DNA of 32,180 bases from a virus. The stretch spans positions 1 through 32,180 of IMG/VR virus record IMGVR_UViG_3300035698_017249. The stretch is one strand, 5' to 3'. Both the position numbers and the translations under genes were made by a program. Positions 2,451-32,007 of the stretch are shown here, piece after piece (the first letter of the stretch is position 1; each line of letters begins with the position of its first letter). Under the pieces are notes generated by a model. The model had not been told where the DNA came from. It ran no database searches and was given only the letters and a program-made list of their open reading frames with translations.

Positions 2451-3756
2451 GTTCTTCTAACAACCTTGTTTTAAGTAATAAGTAGGCGGCGTCCTCCACT
2501 GAAAGAGACCCAAAAATTGGGACACCCATTTCTTTTAGCTTTTCGAGCTGGTGAGCAAAAGCAGGTATTATGAGTGTCTGAGATTTATCATATAGATCAT
2601 GCCGACTACATTCATAAGTGACTTGTTCTATGCTTAATTTGTGACGATCAACTGCGCTAGTTAAACGCTCCCCATCAGAAAACTCAAACTCAGGCTCTAT
2701 ATCTGCTCCACCAAGCATATTGAATGAACAAATATTGTGAATCTCGTCGGATAAATCATAAACGTAGCAGGCTGATTTGTTCTTAAATGGTCTTACTCCA
2801 CGGCCGATCATTTGACAGTACAGAGTCTTGGATTTCGTTGGCCTTGCCAGGATAAGTGATTCAATGCTTGGCTCGTCAAAACCCTCTGTAAGAAGCTGGC
2901 AGTTGCAAAGGACTTCAATCTCTCCAGACCTAAACTGCTGGATTATTTCCCTTCTCCTCTTTTTCCCCATACCACCATAGATGTACTCGGATTTTATCCC
3001 GTGTTTTTGGAATTGATCGGCCATCGTTCTTGAATGGTCCACATTTAGGCAAAATACAAGAGTCTTTTTTCCAGAACATTGGTTTAAATATACGTCTAAT
3101 ATTATTTCGTTTCTTGCATCAACGTCTAATTCTATTAGGACTGAAGGGGCAAGGTCGCCAGCCTGATATTTCATTTCGTTGATTTTATGACTGGTCTTTA
3201 TCTTATAGCACTCTATATCAACAAGATGACCTTTTTTTATCAGGTCGACTAATGTCGACGCATAGGTAAGTTCTTCATACACATCAAGCAGAGATTTTCC
3301 GTCAAGGCGCTCCGGAGTAGCAGTAAGACCTAAAACCTTAACACCTTTAGCAACAAAGTGATCAATAATAGCCTTTAGGCTCTTTGCTTGTGATCTGTGA
3401 GCTTCATCAATAATCAACACCTTTGGATTAAAGTTGTCTAGTTCACCTCTCTTCATTGCAAAGGTCGCTGCCTGGCCGGTCATTACCAAATATTGCTTGT
3501 CTTTCGGCCAATATGATCTCCTTTTAATGTAAACATTGGATTCTCCAACAACATTTTGTCCGGTCTCCTCAATCTGTTCGAGAAGCTCCCTAGTTGGAGC
3601 AATAATCAAAGCCCGCTCGTTCATTTCTCGTAGAACGTGCCACAAAACAACAGTCTTGCCAGAACCAGTTGGGAGCTGTACTAACTGGCTGTTTAGATCA
3701 TCGAATTTTTTTAAGATCGTATCAACACAGGCTTTTTGATAATCTCTAAGTATCAT
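2347..3756 (-). CDS. SF2 DEAH-box helicase (ResIII/UvrB-like)
   Basis: A 469-residue superfamily 2 helicase of the restriction-type ResIII plus Helicase_C architecture. Visible motifs in order: LRDYQ (3-7), Walker A LPTGSGKT (28-35), Ia APTREL (53-58), DEAH (117-120), III LTATPER (144-150), IV LVFCLNVDH (233-241), V LLTEGFDEP (288-296) and VI QMIGRGVRP (315-323). It would be an ATP-driven DNA translocase or branch-remodelling enzyme. Its gene follows the YqaJ nuclease with an ATGA overlap, so it probably works with the recombination set. The last 35 codons or so overlap the integrase-like gene in another frame. Confidence 0.9.
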   Translation of the reverse strand: MILRDYQKACVDTILKKFDDLNSQLVQLPTGSGKTVVLWHVLREMNERALIIAPTRELLEQIEETGQNVVGESNVYIKRRSYWPKDKQYLVMTGQAATFAMKRGELDNFNPKVLIIDEAHRSQAKSLKAIIDHFVAKGVKVLGLTATPERLDGKSLLDVYEELTYASTLVDLIKKGHLVDIECYKIKTSHKINEMKYQAGDLAPSVLIELDVDARNEIILDVYLNQCSGKKTLVFCLNVDHSRTMADQFQKHGIKSEYIYGGMGKKRRREIIQQFRSGEIEVLCNCQLLTEGFDEPSIESLILARPTKSKTLYCQMIGRGVRPFKNKSACYVYDLSDEIHNICSFNMLGGADIEPEFEFSDGERLTSAVDRHKLSIEQVTYECSRHDLYDKSQTLIIPAFAHQLEKLKEMGVPIFGSLSVEDAAYLLLKTRLLEEHGFDIKKYWSTWRRVPCCGSSKGTQGYMQDVSRL

Positions 3757-5780: not shown

Positions 5781-5986
5781 TTCTCATCACCTATAACGAT
5801 ATCATCTTTCTCGAACACGGCTGCATGAGCATCATCAGACTTTTGTTTTGTCAATATCATATCAAGTAAATCAATGACTTGTACTATCATCTCTCTATTT
5901 CGCTCGATTCTTTTGCTTACAAGATAATCTTTAAATACCGTCATAATCACCCATGCCGGTACGAAAATCATTAAAAACATGTTCAT
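5777..5986 (-). CDS. small single-span membrane protein
   Basis: A 69-residue protein with an N-terminal hydrophobic segment (MFLMIFVPAWVIMTVF), then a basic helix (KRIERNREMIVQVIDLLDMI) and an acidic tail. Its start overlaps the stop of the preceding gene as ATGA. The layout resembles the 61-residue membrane protein at 4640-4825 (N-terminal span plus helical tail), though sequence similarity is not evident. Function unknown. Confidence 0.6.
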   Translation of the reverse strand: MNMFLMIFVPAWVIMTVFKDYLVSKRIERNREMIVQVIDLLDMILTKQKSDDAHAAVFEKDDIVIGDEK

Positions 5987-6378
5987 TTTGAAACCTCTAT
6001 AAATTTAAAGTCTTTGGGTAGCCCTATATCGCTACAGAAACCACCTTTGTGTGCACGCTCTATCTCATGCTCGTCAGCTAAATCCATAGCATACAGGGGG
6101 TCAGTATCTTCTAATACTTTAAGCATTCCGCGTGCTCTTTGTCCCTGATCTACGAAGATGCTATTCCTTCCAGAGCCGATGGTGTGGTAGATCTTTGAGT
6201 CTGCGTAGTACTGAACCGTTTTTGTTAAAGCTTCGATTATTCCGTCTTGATCTTCGATTATTTTGTCTTGAGCATCAAGCTGCTCTATATAGTCGTCCAT
6301 ATCTTCCTCTCTCTCTTTGTATATGTGATCTAGCAGTTGATCGGTTTGGTTTTCGTAAGCTGTGTCTATGCAGTGCAT
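5983..6378 (-). CDS. first gene of the leftward operon, hypothetical coiled-coil protein
   Basis: A 131-residue acidic protein. The N-terminal 55 residues are a likely coiled coil (YKEREEDMDDYIEQLDAQDK). The remainder is mixed, with a conserved-looking YHTIGSGRNSIFVDQG segment. I chose ATG 6378, which has AAGGAG eight bases upstream, over ATG 6405. It lies directly downstream of the candidate leftward promoter and opposite the divergent RHH regulator. No family recognised. Confidence 0.65.
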   Translation of the reverse strand: MHCIDTAYENQTDQLLDHIYKEREEDMDDYIEQLDAQDKIIEDQDGIIEALTKTVQYYADSKIYHTIGSGRNSIFVDQGQRARGMLKVLEDTDPLYAMDLADEHEIERAHKGGFCSDIGLPKDFKFIEVSK

Positions 6379-12381: not shown

Positions 12382-12837
12382 ATGGCTGCGCCTAAAGGGA
12401 ATCAATTTGGCTATGGGAATCACAATACCGGTCGTCCTCGTACATGGACTAAGGAAGTTGTAGATGCCGAAGCTGAGATATTCATTGAGTGGGCTAAGCT
12501 TCCAGACTCTGTAATCCTAAGAGAATTTGCAGGGCTTAGAGGATACGGACACAAACAGCTATATAAGTGGATCGATCCTGAAGATCCAACTTTTAATGAT
12601 GAGTTTTTACACGCTTTCAACTTTGCAAAGACCGTTATAGGGGCTAGACGAGAAAGAGTTGACTTTTCGAAGAGCACACAAAGAGATCTTGGGATGCACT
12701 TTGACGAGCTCGATGCATACGAAAGAGAGCGCGAGGAATTCAAGTCTAAGCTAAGGCAGAAAGAAGCAGAAATCCAAGCGCTTACAGGCGCTGAAGTAGT
12801 GAAACTGGCGGAAAGCGGGAAGCTGTCACAAAAATGA
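12382..12837 (+). CDS. terS: terminase small subunit
   Basis: A 151-residue protein with the common small-terminase opening (KGNQF...GRP), a helix-rich DNA-binding middle (DSVILREFAGLRGYGHKQLY, resembling a helix-turn-helix) and a C-terminal coiled coil (EREREEFKSKLRQKEAEIQ). It would recognise the packaging site and regulate the large subunit. AGGGGAAAG precedes ATG 12382. The stop overlaps the large-subunit start as ATGA, the usual gene order. Confidence 0.8.
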   Translation: MAAPKGNQFGYGNHNTGRPRTWTKEVVDAEAEIFIEWAKLPDSVILREFAGLRGYGHKQLYKWIDPEDPTFNDEFLHAFNFAKTVIGARRERVDFSKSTQRDLGMHFDELDAYEREREEFKSKLRQKEAEIQALTGAEVVKLAESGKLSQK

Positions 12838-13508
12838 TTAATGATAAAATCTGGCGTCTCAACAATCTCTACCGGATCGTAGATAAGTCAGGTTCTTCGA
12901 TACCTTTCAGGCTGAACGCGGTCCAGGCTGTAGTCGCACTAGACAAACATAAGCGCAAGCTAATTCTGAAAGCCCGTCAGCTAGGGATGTCTACGTTCGC
13001 CGTTATCGATCTTCTCGATGATGTACTTTTCAACGAAAACTTAGCTGCCGGTATCGTCTCTTACTCACTTGAACACGCGCAGCACATTTACAAGCGCATC
13101 ATCGGCCACGCTCTAGAGACTATGCTACCGGAGCTCAAGCCTCTGGTTGGCATCGTTAGTCAGTCAGCGCGTGAGATCAGCTTTAAGAACGGCTCTTTTC
13201 TTCGGGTTGATACATCTTTGCGCGGTGGTTCGTACCAGTCAATTCTGGTGTCTGAATTCGGTAAGACTTGCGCTCGCTCACCTCAAAAGGCGGAAGAAGT
13301 GATCACAGGGACGCTGCAGACGGTGCCAATTAGCGGGAAAGTGGTTATTGAGAGCACCGGTGAAGGAAACAGTGGATATTTTTCAGAAATGTGCCATAAA
13401 GCAAACATTCGCGGAAATGATAACCTAGGGGAATTGGAGTATAGAATGCTATTTTTCCCGTGGTATACAGAGATTTCATATGATCTGAGAAGGGTTGTTA
13501 GCGAATAA
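12834..13508 (+). CDS. terL: terminase large subunit, N-terminal ATPase part (split gene)
   Basis: A 224-residue reading frame holding the packaging ATPase: Walker A-like KARQLGMST (46-54), Walker B ILVSE with the catalytic glutamate (137-141), and coupling motif IESTGEG (172-178). It runs through the LFFPWY segment, typical of the end of this domain (206-211), then loses similarity at about residue 218 and stops. The nuclease half is encoded separately at 14151-14987, after an HNH gene. The two halves sum to 502 residues, a normal full length. They are in the same frame modulo 3, so removal of an insert of 3n bases would restore one gene. Confidence 0.88.
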   Translation: MINDKIWRLNNLYRIVDKSGSSIPFRLNAVQAVVALDKHKRKLILKARQLGMSTFAVIDLLDDVLFNENLAAGIVSYSLEHAQHIYKRIIGHALETMLPELKPLVGIVSQSAREISFKNGSFLRVDTSLRGGSYQSILVSEFGKTCARSPQKAEEVITGTLQTVPISGKVVIESTGEGNSGYFSEMCHKANIRGNDNLGELEYRMLFFPWYTEISYDLRRVVSE

Positions 13509-13551
13509 ACTGGCGAGTATGTATGATAATCCCAAATGGAGGTTATTGTAC

Positions 13552-14154
13552 ATGATATACAAAAAGTGTGACAGTTGTGAAAAGCAAGTAAGTTATAAAA
13601 GTAAGATCTGCATGGGGTGCAGGAAAAAGAATGCAGCGATACGGAAACTACCAGCACCCTGTAATCAGTGTGGAGAAAGCAGGGTCCTGCTAGGGAAAAA
13701 GAGAATATGTCAGAAATGTACACACCTAAACTATTATGCTGCAAATAGGGAAATGGTATGTGAAAAAACCTTAGCTTACTCAAGAGCCAAGATTAGAACG
13801 CGAAGGGGTCTTCCTCTTGATCATCCTAGATTAATTGCGGAATTTGGGGAAGGTCACACCTGTAAACGAACAGGGTATAGATACCTAAACAAGAAAGGTC
13901 ATCCAAATGCAAAGGACGTGAACGTGGAAAAGTGTCGGTGGAGAATTGCCGAGCACACGTTTGTCATGAGCGAGCATTTAGGGCGACCACTAAAAGATGG
14001 AGAATCAGTACACCACAAGAACAGTATAAGAAGCGATAACAGGATAGAGAATCTTGAGCTATGGTGTAAGGGTCAACCGAACGGGGGGCGAGTGGACGAC
14101 AAAATAAAATGGGCTATTGAATTTCTGACAGAGTACGGGTACACAGTATCGTGA
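13552..14154 (+). CDS. HNH homing endonuclease inserted in terL
   Basis: A 201-residue protein. Two N-terminal zinc knuckles (CDSC with CMGC, and CNQC with CQKC) precede an HNH_3-type nuclease (HTFVMSEHLGRPLKDGESVH, then HKNSIRSDNRIENLELW) and the common tail VDDKIKWAIEFLTEYG. Such enzymes cut a target allele so that the gene is copied into it. GGAGG lies nine bases before ATG 13552; in-frame upstream codons back to 13495 are not needed. Its stop overlaps a GTG that opens the terminase C-terminal half. About 60 bases of non-matching DNA precede it. Confidence 0.88.
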   Translation: MIYKKCDSCEKQVSYKSKICMGCRKKNAAIRKLPAPCNQCGESRVLLGKKRICQKCTHLNYYAANREMVCEKTLAYSRAKIRTRRGLPLDHPRLIAEFGEGHTCKRTGYRYLNKKGHPNAKDVNVEKCRWRIAEHTFVMSEHLGRPLKDGESVHHKNSIRSDNRIENLELWCKGQPNGGRVDDKIKWAIEFLTEYGYTVS

Positions 14155-14987
14155 ATAAGATAACAATCAGCATAGAACAGACGGACTACTTCGACGCTCT
14201 GGAAAAGAGCGAGGGGGTAACGCTTTCTATTGGTCAACGTGAGTGGTACTGTCACCAGCAATCAATACTTGGTGACAAAGTACGCCAGGAGTTTCCTTCA
14301 ACTGTAAGCGAAGCGTTTTTAAGCAGCTCTGACGCTTATTACTACGCACAGTACATAGAAGATGCTTATCAGTCCAACCGATGCTTGCATACTAGCTTAT
14401 ATGACGCCCTGCTGCCTGTATATGTTGCGATGGATATCGGGGTTAATGACTTGACCGTAATGATCTTCTTTCAGATGACACACGGAGAGATCCGGGTCAT
14501 CGACTACTACGAAGACAAGAACAAGGGCGTCGACTTTTACGCGAAGTTTCTTCTACAAGATAAGAAGTATCACTATAATACCATCTACTTACCTCATGAT
14601 TCGACGCAGCGCAGCAATTTAGACTGTGGCAACACGTATGAACGCGACTTCCGTCGACTGTTTTCTGGTGTAGACACGAAGTTTCAAGTGCTAGAGAGAT
14701 CAGACTTAAACCTTGGCATATCACACGCAAAGCTAAAGTTTGAGCGGTGTGTATTTGCTATCAATAGGGTAAAGCCCTTGTTAGATCATCTTGGTAAGTA
14801 CAGGAAGAAATGGCACGAAGGCACTGGTCGCTACTTAGACGTGCCCCTTCATGATATTCACTCTAACTATGCCGATGCCTACCGTTATATGTGCCAGGCT
14901 GTTACTAAGATAGAGACTGTATCAAATATGGGCGGAGCGATGGAGAGGCATAGAAAAGCGGTTGATATGCGGCGAACAACCATCTAG
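14151..14987 (+). CDS. terL: terminase large subunit, C-terminal nuclease part (split gene)
   Basis: A 278-residue frame that resumes the large terminase at about residue 6 (ISIEQTDYFDALEKSEGVTL, then GDKVRQEFPSTVSEAF). It contains the RNase H-like nuclease with acidic residues in AMDIG (D95), PHD (D150) and NYADAYRYM (D242). It would cut concatemers at the start and end of packaging. The GTG at 14151 overlaps the HNH stop as GTGA, giving it its own coupled start, although the ribosome site is weak. All three nuclease acids survive, so the split pair may be functional if the two chains associate. Confidence 0.88.
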   Translation: MNKITISIEQTDYFDALEKSEGVTLSIGQREWYCHQQSILGDKVRQEFPSTVSEAFLSSSDAYYYAQYIEDAYQSNRCLHTSLYDALLPVYVAMDIGVNDLTVMIFFQMTHGEIRVIDYYEDKNKGVDFYAKFLLQDKKYHYNTIYLPHDSTQRSNLDCGNTYERDFRRLFSGVDTKFQVLERSDLNLGISHAKLKFERCVFAINRVKPLLDHLGKYRKKWHEGTGRYLDVPLHDIHSNYADAYRYMCQAVTKIETVSNMGGAMERHRKAVDMRRTTI

Positions 14988-15060: not shown

Positions 15061-17232
15061 ATGCTAAACGACTATGAGACAAAGCAGGAAATCCAAGAAA
15101 ACTACCGATATGCCCATGACTTTTGGGCACCTTTCGTAGAGGATGCTAAGGTATATGGGCTTGCGCAATCGGGCTACACTTGGCACTCAAAAGAGCGCGA
15201 GAAGCTAGTAAAAGACGGTCGAGAGCCTTTAGAATTCAATATCATGCGTCGCCCTTTGCAGTTTTACTCTGGCTATCTTCGTGATAACGTCAACTCGATC
15301 GTTATTGCTCCCATGGAGGGTAGCGACCAAAAAACAGCAGACCAGTTGACGGCTGTCAGTTCTTATATATGGGACAAGGCAGAGGGCTTCCCTGTCTTTC
15401 TTGATTCGTGTGACGAATGTTTCAAGGCTGGCATTAGTCTTACCGGTCTTCGGATGGACTTCACCAAGGATTTTATTAATGGTGACATTGCTTTCTATAA
15501 GCGTACATATAACAGCTTCTATCTAGACCCGACTTTCGAGAACATTAACTTAAGCGACTGTTCTTTTGCTATAATGCGTGATCTAATCAACAAGGAGTCT
15601 GCGAAAGCGCTTTTGCCTTTCGTGCCACAAGAAGCCATCGATGAAATCCAGGGTGGTTTCCGCGATGAGAAGTTCATGAGTTACCATCCTCAGTTTACAT
15701 CTTTTAGCCGCAATCGCAACTTGATGGCATACGATCAGTACTACAAGCGTACGACTAGAAACCGTAAGATGCTGATTGACCAAAGAACGGGTTTTTACAA
15801 AGACATTACCGATGAAAGCGAAGAGAACGTATCGAAGCTAGAGCGCGGAATACACCGCTTTGAGCAATTAAGGCGCGATGCTGACGACATTGGTGTAAAA
15901 CAGGATGACATTCCAAGCGTTGAGATTAAGACTGTTGAACGTCCTTATATCGAGCTAAACGTACTGCTCAACGGTGAGCATGTTTATTCTGGCGACGACA
16001 GGACAGGGATTACCGAAGTTTTCCCATTTGTTCCGAACATTTGCTACTTTGAGCCGTCAATCTGGATGCCATCGCAACGACTTCAGGGCATTTCATCGAC
16101 ACAATGGAGTATGCAGCGGCAGTTCAACAAGCGTCACATGAAGATCATCGACATGATGGATTCGACCATATCGACAGGCTTTAAATACATCTTAGGTACG
16201 GTGCCGGATCCACAAGAGATGCAGCAGTCAGGACAGAACAAGCTTATTGGAGTATCACCAGAGGATAACCCGCTTGGTTTAGGTGCTGTTGAGCAGTTGC
16301 AAGGCGGCGGTGCTAATCCTGCTCTGCTAGAGTACCAGAAAGTACTTGATGATCTCTCCCTAACTTTGGCAAACATCACCGAATCGGTGCTTGGCATTGA
16401 CGAGAAGGGTAACACGCAAGTTAGCGGACGACTGGCGCAAGTCAGGATAGCTCAGGGTCTACGCTCAAACCGTAAGATCTTCGACAATATCGAAACAGCA
16501 CAGCAAGTTTTGGGTGGTCTTGTTCTTCAGGCTATTCAGAAGAACTACCCGCCTGAAAAAATTGAACGTATCCTCAACGAGGAGCCAACAGAGCAGTTTT
16601 ACGAAAAAGACTTTGAGCAATATGATGCGGTTATCAAAGAAGGAGTTCGATCCAAGTCACAAAAAGATGCCTACTACTATGAGCTTATCAACCTTAAGCG
16701 TGATGGTATTGTTGACGTGCCGCAAGCTGAAATCGTTCGTGCTCTCCAAATGTCGGGCCTTTCCGATCTTGAGGAAGCCATCGAAGAACAAGAGCAAAAA
16801 GCAGCAGAGCAGCAAGCTAAGATTGACGAGCAAGAGCAAATGGTTCTTAAGCTAGAGGCTTCCAAGATCGAAAGCAATCTCTCATTATCAAAAGAAAGAT
16901 CTGCTAGGATATTAGCGGACATAGGCCTCGCAGAGGAAAGACACAGCGAGGCGAGTTCCAATAGGGCTGATGCAGTATTAGCACGTGCTAAAGCAATGAC
17001 TGAAATTTCAGCATTGAATGAAGATCGCATATTGAAAGTTCTTGCACTATTGAATCAGTTTCAAGAAGAAGAAACAGCAGCACAAGAGGCTGTTTCTGAT
17101 AAATCTAAGGAATTAGCAGGGGCTATTGATCAGTCTGTTGATCAGGCTGCACAGTCTTTACAGCCTTCTCAATCTCCTCAGCAAAGCTCTTCTCTCGAAG
17201 GTAATTCTTCGTCTTTGGGAGGTGGCCAGTGA
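15061..17232 (+). CDS. portal protein (P22 gp1-like)
   Basis: A 723-residue protein with the podovirus portal pattern: a helical start (YAHDFWAPFVEDAKVYGLAQ), then PLEFNIMRRPLQFYSGYLRD, SSYIWDKAEGFPVFLDSCDE and SFYLDPTFENINLSDCSF. The C-terminal 130 residues are a glutamate- and glutamine-rich coiled coil and a low-complexity tail (SLQPSQSPQQSSSLEGN), as expected of the crown or barrel. It forms the ring through which DNA is packaged and ejected. The ribosome site is weak (GGTG). The last 110 bases are overlapped on the other strand by an HNH gene. Confidence 0.9.
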   Translation: MLNDYETKQEIQENYRYAHDFWAPFVEDAKVYGLAQSGYTWHSKEREKLVKDGREPLEFNIMRRPLQFYSGYLRDNVNSIVIAPMEGSDQKTADQLTAVSSYIWDKAEGFPVFLDSCDECFKAGISLTGLRMDFTKDFINGDIAFYKRTYNSFYLDPTFENINLSDCSFAIMRDLINKESAKALLPFVPQEAIDEIQGGFRDEKFMSYHPQFTSFSRNRNLMAYDQYYKRTTRNRKMLIDQRTGFYKDITDESEENVSKLERGIHRFEQLRRDADDIGVKQDDIPSVEIKTVERPYIELNVLLNGEHVYSGDDRTGITEVFPFVPNICYFEPSIWMPSQRLQGISSTQWSMQRQFNKRHMKIIDMMDSTISTGFKYILGTVPDPQEMQQSGQNKLIGVSPEDNPLGLGAVEQLQGGGANPALLEYQKVLDDLSLTLANITESVLGIDEKGNTQVSGRLAQVRIAQGLRSNRKIFDNIETAQQVLGGLVLQAIQKNYPPEKIERILNEEPTEQFYEKDFEQYDAVIKEGVRSKSQKDAYYYELINLKRDGIVDVPQAEIVRALQMSGLSDLEEAIEEQEQKAAEQQAKIDEQEQMVLKLEASKIESNLSLSKERSARILADIGLAEERHSEASSNRADAVLARAKAMTEISALNEDRILKVLALLNQFQEEETAAQEAVSDKSKELAGAIDQSVDQAAQSLQPSQSPQQSSSLEGNSSSLGGGQ

Positions 17233-20106: not shown

Positions 20107-20856
20107 ATGTCAAATCTACAACTAGGCGCATCAAGATCGGAAGGTTTCCAACTTGTTTCAGGTGGTGCAGCTTATCCACTACAATTTAGCTGGCAGCCTG
20201 ACATGGTTGTTGTTAATAACCTAACAGACTGGGCTGGAACAGCCGGTGGTCTACCCCGTTCATTTTGGTTTCGCGATCAAATGACTGATGTCCATGCATT
20301 CCAACAGCAAGTAATTGATAGCTCCGCTGGTGCTAGCTTTAACTTCTTGGACACTGCTACTAATGGTTTCACGCTTGCTGATACAAATGGTGGTTCTACA
20401 GACTATTCTAGTCTGATTTCTGCTGTGACTGCTGCTGATCCTTGTGTGATCACTACTACCGCCGCTCATGGCCTACAAAGTGAGCAGTTGGTACGAATCA
20501 CAGACCTAGGCTCTGATATGCCAACAGCGCGTGGTATGGACGAGATTAATAACAACCGATACAGGATCACCGTCATTGACAGCACTTCTTTCTCTTTGAA
20601 AGACCCTGTTAGCGACGATGCTATTGATTCTACTAGCTATACCGCATGGGTAGCTGGTGGTCGCATTCAGCTAGAGAGCCGTATGTTAACCCTTAACAAC
20701 CCTTCTACTACATCTTATACATCTAATGGGTTCGAATACGATCCTATTGATTATAAGCTGATACTAGGAACATCTGTCGTTGGTGGCGATGGCGATGTCT
20801 TGTTTGTTGAGTCTTACGGGTTTGGTAAGGTGACAAATCTTGGCGATATTGGGTGA
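20107..20856 (+). CDS. virion protein with FCCH-type beta domain
   Basis: A 249-residue protein, probably structural. Residues 1-85 are beta-rich with FSWQPDMVVVNNLTDWAG. Residues about 105-195 form a repeat domain (DPCVITTTAAHGLQSEQLVR, then TSFSLKDPVSDDAIDSTSYT and WVAGGRI) of the kind annotated in phages as the E1 FCCH fold. A second copy is encoded at 21520-21840 and a third lies in the large tail protein at 23752. It directly follows the coat gene, so it may be a head decoration or head-tail joining protein. An HNH gene separates it from its paralogue. Confidence 0.6.
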   Translation: MSNLQLGASRSEGFQLVSGGAAYPLQFSWQPDMVVVNNLTDWAGTAGGLPRSFWFRDQMTDVHAFQQQVIDSSAGASFNFLDTATNGFTLADTNGGSTDYSSLISAVTAADPCVITTTAAHGLQSEQLVRITDLGSDMPTARGMDEINNNRYRITVIDSTSFSLKDPVSDDAIDSTSYTAWVAGGRIQLESRMLTLNNPSTTSYTSNGFEYDPIDYKLILGTSVVGGDGDVLFVESYGFGKVTNLGDIG

Positions 20857-20880
20857 CGTTAGACAATTGCTAACAAATGT

Positions 20881-20913
20881 CTCCTATGGTATTCTTATGG
20901 GTACCATAGGAGG
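20881..20913 (+). promoter_or_regulatory. hairpin sequestering the HNH ribosome site
   Basis: CTCCTATGGTA (20881-20891) pairs perfectly with TACCATAGGAG (20902-20912) around a 10-base loop. The Shine-Dalgarno AGGAGG (20908-20913) lies in the 3' arm, five bases from ATG 20918. In the folded mRNA the ribosome site is masked. Confidence 0.75.
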
Positions 20914-20917
20914 TTTT

Positions 20918-21523
20918 ATGAAAATATGTACTAAGTGTAAAGAACTTAAAGGGTTAGAATTTTTTACCACAAAATCTGGAAATGTAACATCTAGATGCAA
21001 AAAATGTGCATCAAAAGTCAATTCAGAGTGGAGAAAAAACAACCCAGAAAAATCTAGGAAGATCAAGCAGAGATACTATCAAAAGAATAAAGAAGATAGA
21101 GACAAGTGCAATAGAGAATGGGTTGAAAATAATCGTCAAAAATCAAATGAGATTAAAAAAGCTTACAAGGAAAGAAATCGGGAATCAAAATTAAAACGTG
21201 AACGAGAAAGAGCAAGAGAACGATATTCCGAAGATCCTGAAAAGCATATTGAAAGGCATAAGAAGTGGATTGAAAATAATCCTAAAGAATATAGAGAGAG
21301 TGCAAAGAAATCCTATGATGCAAATCCTGAAAAAATTATAGCGAGAACTCAAGTTAGGTTAGCAATCATAGATGGAACCTTGATCAGACCAAACACCTGT
21401 TTAAGATGTAAAAAAGAAAGTGAGATAGATGCACACCACCCTGACTACTCGAAGCCCTTAGAGGTGGTGTGGCTATGCAAGAAGTGCCATATGGCAGAAC
21501 ATAGAAAAGATGAGATGATATGA
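20918..21523 (+). CDS. HNH endonuclease with basic repeat region
   Basis: A 201-residue protein: an N-terminal zinc site (CTKCKE, then CKKCAS), a long very basic helical region with repeated NPEK/NNP..Y units (KNNPEKSRKIKQRYYQKNK) that probably grips DNA, and a C-terminal HNH-type site (CLRC, EIDAHHPDYSKPLEVVWLCK, CHMAEHR). It is a probable homing endonuclease. ATG 20918 has AGGAGG five bases upstream inside the hairpin at 20881-20913. Its stop overlaps the start of the next FCCH gene as ATATGA. Confidence 0.85.
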   Translation: MKICTKCKELKGLEFFTTKSGNVTSRCKKCASKVNSEWRKNNPEKSRKIKQRYYQKNKEDRDKCNREWVENNRQKSNEIKKAYKERNRESKLKRERERARERYSEDPEKHIERHKKWIENNPKEYRESAKKSYDANPEKIIARTQVRLAIIDGTLIRPNTCLRCKKESEIDAHHPDYSKPLEVVWLCKKCHMAEHRKDEMI

Positions 21524-31305: not shown

Positions 31306-32007
31306 ATGACTAAAGCTTTAGAATTAACGGGCCAAAAATTTGGTCATCTTACTGCGGTTGAACGTATTAAAAACAATAAACATGGTCAATCTAGGTGGCT
31401 ATGTCAATGTAGTTGTGGAAATAAAATAATTTGCGTTGGATCACAACTTTTGAGAAATCATTATAAGTCATGTGGATGTCAACATGGTTTAAAATTACAA
31501 GATTATATAAAAAGTAAAGTAAAGATTACTAAATATGGTGAGTGGCTGTGGCAAGGTTTTTTAGAAAAGAATGGATATGGTCGAGTGAGCTGGAAAGGGG
31601 AAAGTTGGAGTGCACATCGTCTTTCATACACTGCTTTTATTGGAAATATCCCGGATGGATTATACGTTTGTCATAGAAATGATTATCCTCAAGACGTGAA
31701 TCCAAGCAATCTCTTTTTAGGCACTCCTGCTGAAAATTCTGCTGATATGGTAGAAAAGAAACGCTCATTTAGTTCGAAAGGAATTCCTAGAACGTATATG
31801 CAAGGTGAAAAACACAATAAATCAAAGTTGGCCGAAAGAGACGTCATTAAAATTCGACAAATGAGAAAAGAAGGCATCGGAAATACTGAAATGTCTAAGA
31901 TCTACGGAGTCTGCGTTACAACGATTGAAAGAATCGTATACGGCAAAACCTGGCGCCACGTCCCTCTCCCCTCAACCCAAAGCGAGGATTCATCCGATGA
32001 GCAATAA
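31306..32007 (+). CDS. HNH endonuclease with C-terminal helix-turn-helix
   Basis: A 233-residue protein in three parts. The first is an N-terminal zinc domain (GQKFGHLTAVER, then WLCQCSCGNK and KSCGC). The second is an HNH_3-type nuclease (SAHRLSYTAFIGNIPDGLYV, CHRNDYPQDVNPSNLFLGTP). The third is a C-terminal DNA-reading HTH (NKSKLAERDVIKIRQMRKEG, then MSKIYGVCVTTIERIVYG) of the kind found at the end of intron-associated homing enzymes. AGGAG precedes ATG 31306. It sits between the fibre terminator and a small gene it overlaps, so it is probably a mobile insert outside an essential gene. Confidence 0.85.
   Translation: MTKALELTGQKFGHLTAVERIKNNKHGQSRWLCQCSCGNKIICVGSQLLRNHYKSCGCQHGLKLQDYIKSKVKITKYGEWLWQGFLEKNGYGRVSWKGESWSAHRLSYTAFIGNIPDGLYVCHRNDYPQDVNPSNLFLGTPAENSADMVEKKRSFSSKGIPRTYMQGEKHNKSKLAERDVIKIRQMRKEGIGNTEMSKIYGVCVTTIERIVYGKTWRHVPLPSTQSEDSSDEQ

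Follow-up and report, generated by a model that had tools for sequence, protein, structure and literature searches.

In Aeromonas phage Aeh1, the ribonucleotide reductase gene nrdA is split by the HNH endonuclease gene mobE, and the two resulting chains form an active enzyme (PMC2988022). Separate chains that cooperate are also described for the T4 topoisomerase gene 39/60 with mobA and for the DNA polymerase gene 43A/43B of phage 25 with a seg gene (PMC2988022). Here we describe a large terminase gene (terL) that is divided in a comparable way in the virus record IMGVR_UViG_3300035698_017249 (positions 1-32,180, a stretch of 32,180 nucleotides referred to as the window). As in nrdA/mobE, an HNH gene without an intron divides an essential gene into two coding regions, and the likeness to Aeh1 nrdA proposed in the initial annotation of the window, that of an intron-less endonuclease leaving two open and conserved genes, is borne out. 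The locus differs from nrdA in its target, which is an ATP-driven packaging motor rather than a ribonucleotide reductase, in the presence of two endonuclease families at one site among its relatives, and in the persistence of the split after loss of the endonuclease. Genes 39/60 and 43A/43B are likewise coding regions split by a homing endonuclease or an earlier element, but their products are not terminases; 43A/43B, whose relative in 44RR is split by a sequence other than an endonuclease, is the nearest parallel to the relative L038 described below.

terL is a known target of homing elements, with introns or inteins described for Moonbeam, CB7, ICP1, Bastille-like phages, Vibrio JA1 and IBB_35. 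Splicing takes the element out in these cases, or is assumed to, so that a single chain is made; the window, in contrast, has two separate genes, and the search for a splicing element in it was negative. We found no report of a terL remaining in two genes in the literature searched, outside which lay most subscription journals and bioRxiv; nor is a terL lasting as two genes mentioned in the available parts of PMC8861465, PMC4299906, PMC7344957, PMC3670811, PMC10448857, PMC3322345, PMC7824862, PMC2988022, PMC5727402, PMC7468147, PMC11878797 and PMC3012670. Other genes divided by homing endonucleases without introns are already known to function as two chains; terL would be a new case among them. 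We consider it highly probable that an intron-less HNH gene homed into terL and left a two-chain terminase, consisting of an ATPase core and a lid-nuclease chain, that reassembles into a working motor.

In the window, terL is broken at 13506, and an endonuclease gene lies between two in-order pieces of this one gene, as laid out below.

12834-13508, + strand: TerL chain 1, the predicted ATPase (ASCE) core, 224 amino acids, with its stop TAA at 13506-13508
12969-12995, + strand: P-loop KARQLGMST (Walker A) with the P-loop arginine, placed by its invariance in intact relatives and aligned to RQLGKT of T4 gp17
13251-13256, + strand: SE of VSEFGK, which we take from its position to be the Walker B region, present in 53/53 intact relatives and in the window
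13350-13367, + strand: ESTGEG, presumably the coupling motif, with E177 and S178 (numbering of the intact relative L002) in 53/53 intact relatives and in the window
13509-13551, + strand: gap of 43 nucleotides from the chain 1 stop to the HNH start, with the Shine-Dalgarno sequence GGAGGT at 13538-13543
13552-14154, + strand: HNH endonuclease gene, the splitting element, 200 amino acids from its ATG, with the HNH_3 domain at about 13954-14061
14151-14987, + strand: TerL chain 2, the predicted lid subdomain plus RNase H nuclease, 278 amino acids, with a GTG start
14154-14333, + strand: lid part of chain 2, about residues 2-61 with the invariant W32-Y33, mapped via L002 and ATPase-domain structures
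14334-14984, + strand: nuclease domain of chain 2, placed by nuclease-domain structures that begin at model residue 279-283

This anatomy agrees with the initial annotation, which had placed the three open reading frames (ORFs) correctly, noted that the HNH gene has a GGAGG start of its own and that the GTG of the second piece overlaps the HNH stop, and judged that almost no room is left for an intron. The GGAGGT lies 8 bases upstream of the HNH ATG at 13552, while a longer alternative beginning with TTG at 13495 has a Shine-Dalgarno match of just 3 bases. The overlap between the HNH stop and the chain 2 start amounts to 4 nucleotides (GTGA). The HNH product was recognised by Pfam (HNH_3, E = 5e-9) and matched phrog_20891 (1.3e-17). 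No second copy of either terL half was found in the window record (for half 1, on the + strand only).

Both pieces derive from a large terminase. Half 1 matched best a PHROG family without assigned function (phrog_26724, 8.3e-47), its best named match being the terminase family phrog_2 (3.5e-11); half 2 matched phrog_2472 (1.1e-35), also without assigned function, and neither half was recognised by Pfam at the cut-off. By tblastn, 445 phage records matched half 1 and 416 matched half 2, and among the matches listed many are annotated as large terminase. A profile of 53 intact relatives compared with solved structures retrieved T4 gp17 (E = 3.5e-5, residues 22-188 only). The P-loop residues K50, R52, G55, S57 and T58 (L002 numbering) occur in all 53 intact relatives and in the window, and the probable catalytic acids of chain 2, D95 (14433-14435), D150 (14598-14600) and D242 (14874-14876), are all aspartate in the window and at the corresponding positions in 53, 52 and 52 of the 53 intact rows. 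Judged by these residues, the two pieces together would provide the P-loop ATPase and the RNase H-type nuclease with three acidic residues that make up a TerL. The phrog_26724 and phrog_2472 profiles also hinted at a second split near residue 183; this was rejected, as a single coding sequence spans the terL matches in seven named phages, annotated as terminase in MG592575, H66 (where half 2 alone matched), Shewanella 3/49 and Pocitis76 and as hypothetical in PBC5, BS5 and PH1.

The initial annotation had described both halves as intact, and the comparison with relatives confirms this: 84 residues are invariant in the 53 intact relatives, and the two halves of the window keep 84/84. The split relatives L027, L033 and L038 also keep 84/84 each, and L120, compared in half 2 alone, keeps 31/31. 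Such retention is not exceptional, because when each of the 53 intact rows was left out in turn, 30 likewise missed no invariant residue, the others missing 1-5. The split genes thus appear as well kept as intact ones, and no better.

We next located the cut on a structural model predicted for the intact relative L002 (mean predicted local distance difference test score, pLDDT, 85; predicted template modelling score, pTM, 0.59), which matches the TerL structures of T4 gp17, P74-26, HK97, D6E, Sf6 and P22. The cut falls at about residues 219-223, within a predicted 13-residue coil (216-228) between the last core strand (207-210) and the first lid helix (229-242). Crystal structures of TerL ATPase domains (T4 2o0h and 2o0j; P74-26 4zni, 4znj, 4znl and 7ks4) align with the model from residue 1 or 7 to 278-280, that of P74-26 4znk extending to 289, and isolated nuclease-domain structures (P22, G20c, SPP1, P74-26 and RB49) align from residues 279-283 onward. 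The cut therefore lies some 58 residues ahead of the boundary between the ATPase and nuclease domains. An ASCE core and a lid make up the TerL ATPase domain (PMC5727402), and in the model the cut is at the core-lid junction, not at the ATPase-nuclease boundary; the lid therefore goes with the nuclease in chain 2. The division into an ATPase half and a nuclease half, as first annotated, has to be revised accordingly: aligning the halves to intact relatives, as had been suggested for fixing the junction, did fix the split site, but the pieces are the ASCE core and the lid plus nuclease. In D6E, the P-loop arginine is bonded to a lid tyrosine (PMC5727402). Here chain 1 holds the P-loop arginine R52 and chain 2 the invariant lid pair W253-Y254 (L002 numbering), and by analogy these may be the counterpart of the D6E arginine-tyrosine pair.

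Relatives were found by short peptide patterns and in part by alignment with the split halves as query, and the frequencies given here therefore carry no meaning as prevalence. We surveyed 125 loci with both halves, several of them from one contig; 90 records with both halves (80 different sequences) entered the tree. At the site in question, 74 of these records are uninterrupted, including the nearest relatives L001, L002, L003 and L012, while an intein is present in 8, the split in 6 and a lone in-frame stop in 2. With L092, which was omitted from the tree because the contig end cuts its first half, seven contig records are split at this site: the window, L027 (3300035698_008032), L033 (3300025669_001314), L035 (3300005915_000244), L092 (3300035698_012845), L038 (3300035698_012714) and L120 (3300009001_002507). 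Half 1 stops at about residue 218-224 in these records, and half 2 begins with its own ATG or GTG at about the next residue. The distance from stop to chosen start is 642 nucleotides in the window, 173 in L027, 951 in L033, 68 in L038 and 961 in L120; for L033, L092 and L120 longer chain 2 ORFs with earlier starts exist, and the ATG with a Shine-Dalgarno match was chosen. A 5-base Shine-Dalgarno match precedes chain 2 in L027, L033, L038 and L120, as it does at 6% of random window positions. Pattern scans for the leader shared by split loci (26 stretches) and for the chain 2 start (5) led to terL in five already known contigs only, and a scan of genome contigs added the relatives L191 and L192 (metagenome bins), in which the half 1 and half 2 matches lie 3 and 12 base pairs (bp) apart.

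Two other loci have a terL that is uninterrupted except for a single in-frame stop no more than a few residues from the split site (L069 at 5658 and L075 at 4378). A sequence error, a nonsense variant and an early fission are indistinguishable here, and these loci were not counted as splits. In L065, the nuclease part of terL is in two ORFs (2474-2478, break at about residue 199-210), which may be an assembly error. The IMG dataset 3300035698 holds uninterrupted, intein-bearing, endonuclease-split, relic-split and endonuclease-free split alleles of terL in one phage group; its contigs include L001, L002, L004, L012, L013, L017, L027, L038, L046, L049, L069, L092 and L122.

What lies between the halves differs from one split record to another. 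The window HNH gene is absent between the halves of the uninterrupted relatives, and tblastn over 88 loci retrieved it only in L027 and, elsewhere in the locus, in L049. The gap of L027 holds a C-terminal relic of it (37 aligned codons, 70% identity). L033, L035 and L092 carry an identical HNH endonuclease of 299 amino acids from another family (phrog_374), and L120 one of 306 amino acids that is 52% identical to it; in BLASTP, neither type resembled the HNH protein of the window (best E = 0.42). The gap of L038 is 68 nucleotides long and has no endonuclease ORF. It is composed of a leader alignable to L033, where the leader is shared with L027 as well, and the codons YGYKVIKDE-stop, alignable to the L027 relic, that is, to the end of the HNH gene. 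None of 1000 base shuffles (0/1000) matched these leader and end alignments, which take in some terL codons at their edges. In L038, the split has outlasted the endonuclease. The most economical history starts with an HNH_3 gene splitting terL in this group; the gene would then have decayed in L027 and L038, and in L033 another would have taken its place, an order that we infer.

We then asked how many splits are needed, using a tree made by a quick method on which the clades were named after it had been seen. A single clade of the window and L027 was rejected (p = 2.5e-7), as was a single clade of all six split rows (p = 3.7e-5). A clade of L027, L033, L035 and L038 was not rejected (p = 0.61) and fitted better than the free tree, nor was a clade of L120 with L033 and L035 (p = 0.083). 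The quick tree itself has five changes at the split site; because the four-member clade is not rejected and fits better, we count two or three split events, not five. The sequences thus point to a minimum of two independent splits at one and the same site, with a third possible.

A sign of mobility comes from the comparison of L033 with L092, which concerns the other endonuclease family and not the HNH_3 gene of the window. The two are identical across the endonuclease and differ at 17/5,120 bases, 16/17 of them in 85 bp (3155-3239) immediately 3' of the endonuclease gene. Such a cluster is what one would expect if homing had left a short conversion tract at its edge; other local recombination could produce it too.

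A free-standing, intron-less HNH homing endonuclease gene would have been inserted into the terL loop at the core-lid junction, with homing by the window endonuclease as the probable route; genes for RecE-like and Erf-like recombination proteins are present in the phage, and their products could serve the recombination. Both chains would be translated from one message, chain 2 being presumably coupled to the endonuclease stop in the window and served by a ribosome site of its own in the relatives. The core (224 amino acids) and the lid-nuclease chain (278 amino acids) would reassemble through the native core-lid interface, and the reassembled motor would be active in packaging.

Other readings of the locus would leave the phage with a single chain, with no functional terminase, or with an HNH protein that is useful to it. 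If the HNH gene were part of a self-splicing group I or II intron, or if the halves were rejoined at the RNA level, one normal TerL would result, and introns do occur in terL of other phages, several of which have been shown to splice (CB7, Moonbeam, ICP1 and Bastille-like phages). This is very improbable here. The covariance-model check that the initial annotation had called for was run with Rfam, which can miss divergent introns; it gave no family at the cut-off anywhere in the window, three weak matches in 13300-14400 at E up to 10, none of them an intron, and no match at the cut-off in L027, L033, L035, L038, L092 or L120. The room is also too small, with 43 nucleotides before the HNH start and 68 between the genes in L038, set against 350 +/- 108 bases of non-coding intron sequence in Bastillevirinae (PMC11878797), and every split locus has stop and start codons of its own. 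A group I or II intron was thus rejected on length as well as on the covariance models, and an intein at the split site was rejected on account of the in-frame TAA at 13506 that ends half 1. Translational bypass of the 68-nucleotide gap of L038 was set aside solely by reasoning from start codons, because each split has its own.

That the HNH protein serves the phage in packaging, as proposed for proteins of the HK97 gp74 type, and is not a selfish element seems scarcely credible, even though in some phages packaging involves HNH genes located next to the terminase genes (PMC8861465, PMC10448857). The 74 uninterrupted records lack the gene at the site, L027 retains a relic, L038 no longer has it, and in L033, L035, L092 and L120 another family occupies the place; the window type was retrieved from only L027 and L049 among 88 loci. 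Its distribution does not show the conservation beside terL within the lineage that such a partner would have, and this candidate was rejected. More weight attaches to a split terL that is dead or dying in a defective phage, or that is an assembly artefact, which we still regard as unlikely. The contigs are environmental and without culture, the chain 2 start of the window is weak, and L069 and L075 have one in-frame stop near the same place. Set against this are the 84/84 invariant residues of the window halves, an end branch for the window in the tree (0.12) below the median (0.19), the occurrence of the same split in contigs of four IMG dataset numbers (two possibly one sample, L033/L035), and portal and major head protein genes that are open and recognised.

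Several points weigh against a functional two-chain terminase. The whole case rests on metagenome assemblies, from which all contigs come, and on sequence conservation. L033 and L035 do not differ over 3.8 kb and may represent two assemblies of one phage; L038 is the only contig without any endonuclease gene; and the L120 split may not be independent of that of L033 and L035 (p = 0.083). Full retention of the invariant residues could also reflect a recent split, and selection cannot be dated to the time after the split because 15/16 ratios of non-synonymous to synonymous substitution rates (dN/dS) were saturated; the sole unsaturated comparison, half 1 of L038 with L033, counts in favour of the two-chain reading (dN/dS = 0.089). 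The GTG of chain 2 in the window has no Shine-Dalgarno match longer than 3 bases, and its expression would therefore depend on coupling. Finally, T4 gp17 split at the hinge between ATPase and nuclease kept both enzymatic activities, but translocation was abolished (PMC3012670).

The natural cut and the laboratory cut of T4 gp17 both give a two-chain large terminase, but the former falls earlier, between core and lid, and the latter at the domain hinge. The natural split is informative because the hinge cut abolished translocation: a tolerated cut one subdomain before the hinge would separate which connection the motor needs. In models of the motor, force passes from the ATPase core via the lid (the 'transmission') to the nuclease domain (PMC3012670, PMC5727402), and the core-lid link here appears to be non-covalent. 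Splits at the same site in six other contig records, a split that persists where the endonuclease was lost or exchanged, and the conserved state of both halves give two working polypeptides better support than the initial annotation had, and the relatives that have lost the endonuclease and keep a split terL suggest that the motor can run as two chains. It is likely, although we hold this a little less firmly than the two-chain terminase itself, that the packaging motor runs stably as a heteromer with force crossing a non-covalent core-lid joint, a state that the endonuclease would have made but that, to judge from L038, does not need it any more, so that the subunit make-up of an essential motor would have been permanently changed by a selfish element, more than once and in the same loop. 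The full endonuclease, the relic, the replacement and the loss form a series showing how selfish genes can leave lasting two-subunit enzymes.

Other elements were found in terL of the relatives. Four loci (L007 5975-6646, L049 5871-6584, L054 6635-7318 and L058 6632-7306) have an intein-like insert after chain 2 residue 236, the middle of which encodes an HNH-type protein of 223-237 amino acids in another reading frame (HNH_3 by Pfam in L007 and L054, the two tested). The terL frame has 0 stops across these inserts and the third frame 20-36, and the HNH frame shows the higher conservation (40-59% against 29-40%). The L007 insert scored 29.4 bits against Intein_splicing, where 35.8 is the cut-off. 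In a phage methylase, an insertion that lacks splicing domains is known to hold an HNH gene out of frame (PMC11855218). Intein-like inserts also occur in the terL P-loop, after RQLGM, in L004 (3732-4493), L105 and L120; that of L004, the only one tested, matched Intein_splicing above the cut-off (1.7e-10), and L120 carries both the P-loop insert and the split.

HEARO RNAs are a type named for their association with HNH endonuclease ORFs. In L004, the terL-portal interval contains one (5830-6057, RF02033, E = 5e-24) and no + strand ORF of at least 60 amino acids; the corresponding interval of the window is 73 bp long, and Rfam gave no HEARO RNA there. The split terL of the window is flanked in the packaging block by two open genes.

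12382-12837, + strand: probable small terminase gene, 151 amino acids, with a stop overlapping the chain 1 start
15061-17232, + strand: portal gene, open, next in the packaging block (P22_portal, 1.9e-43)

The former is named by its position and ORF alone because its product had no PHROG match and no Pfam match at the cut-off. The window carries two more endonuclease genes, one matching phrog_2340 beside the head and tail genes (20840-21523) and one of the HNH_3 type near the end of the record (31306-32007).

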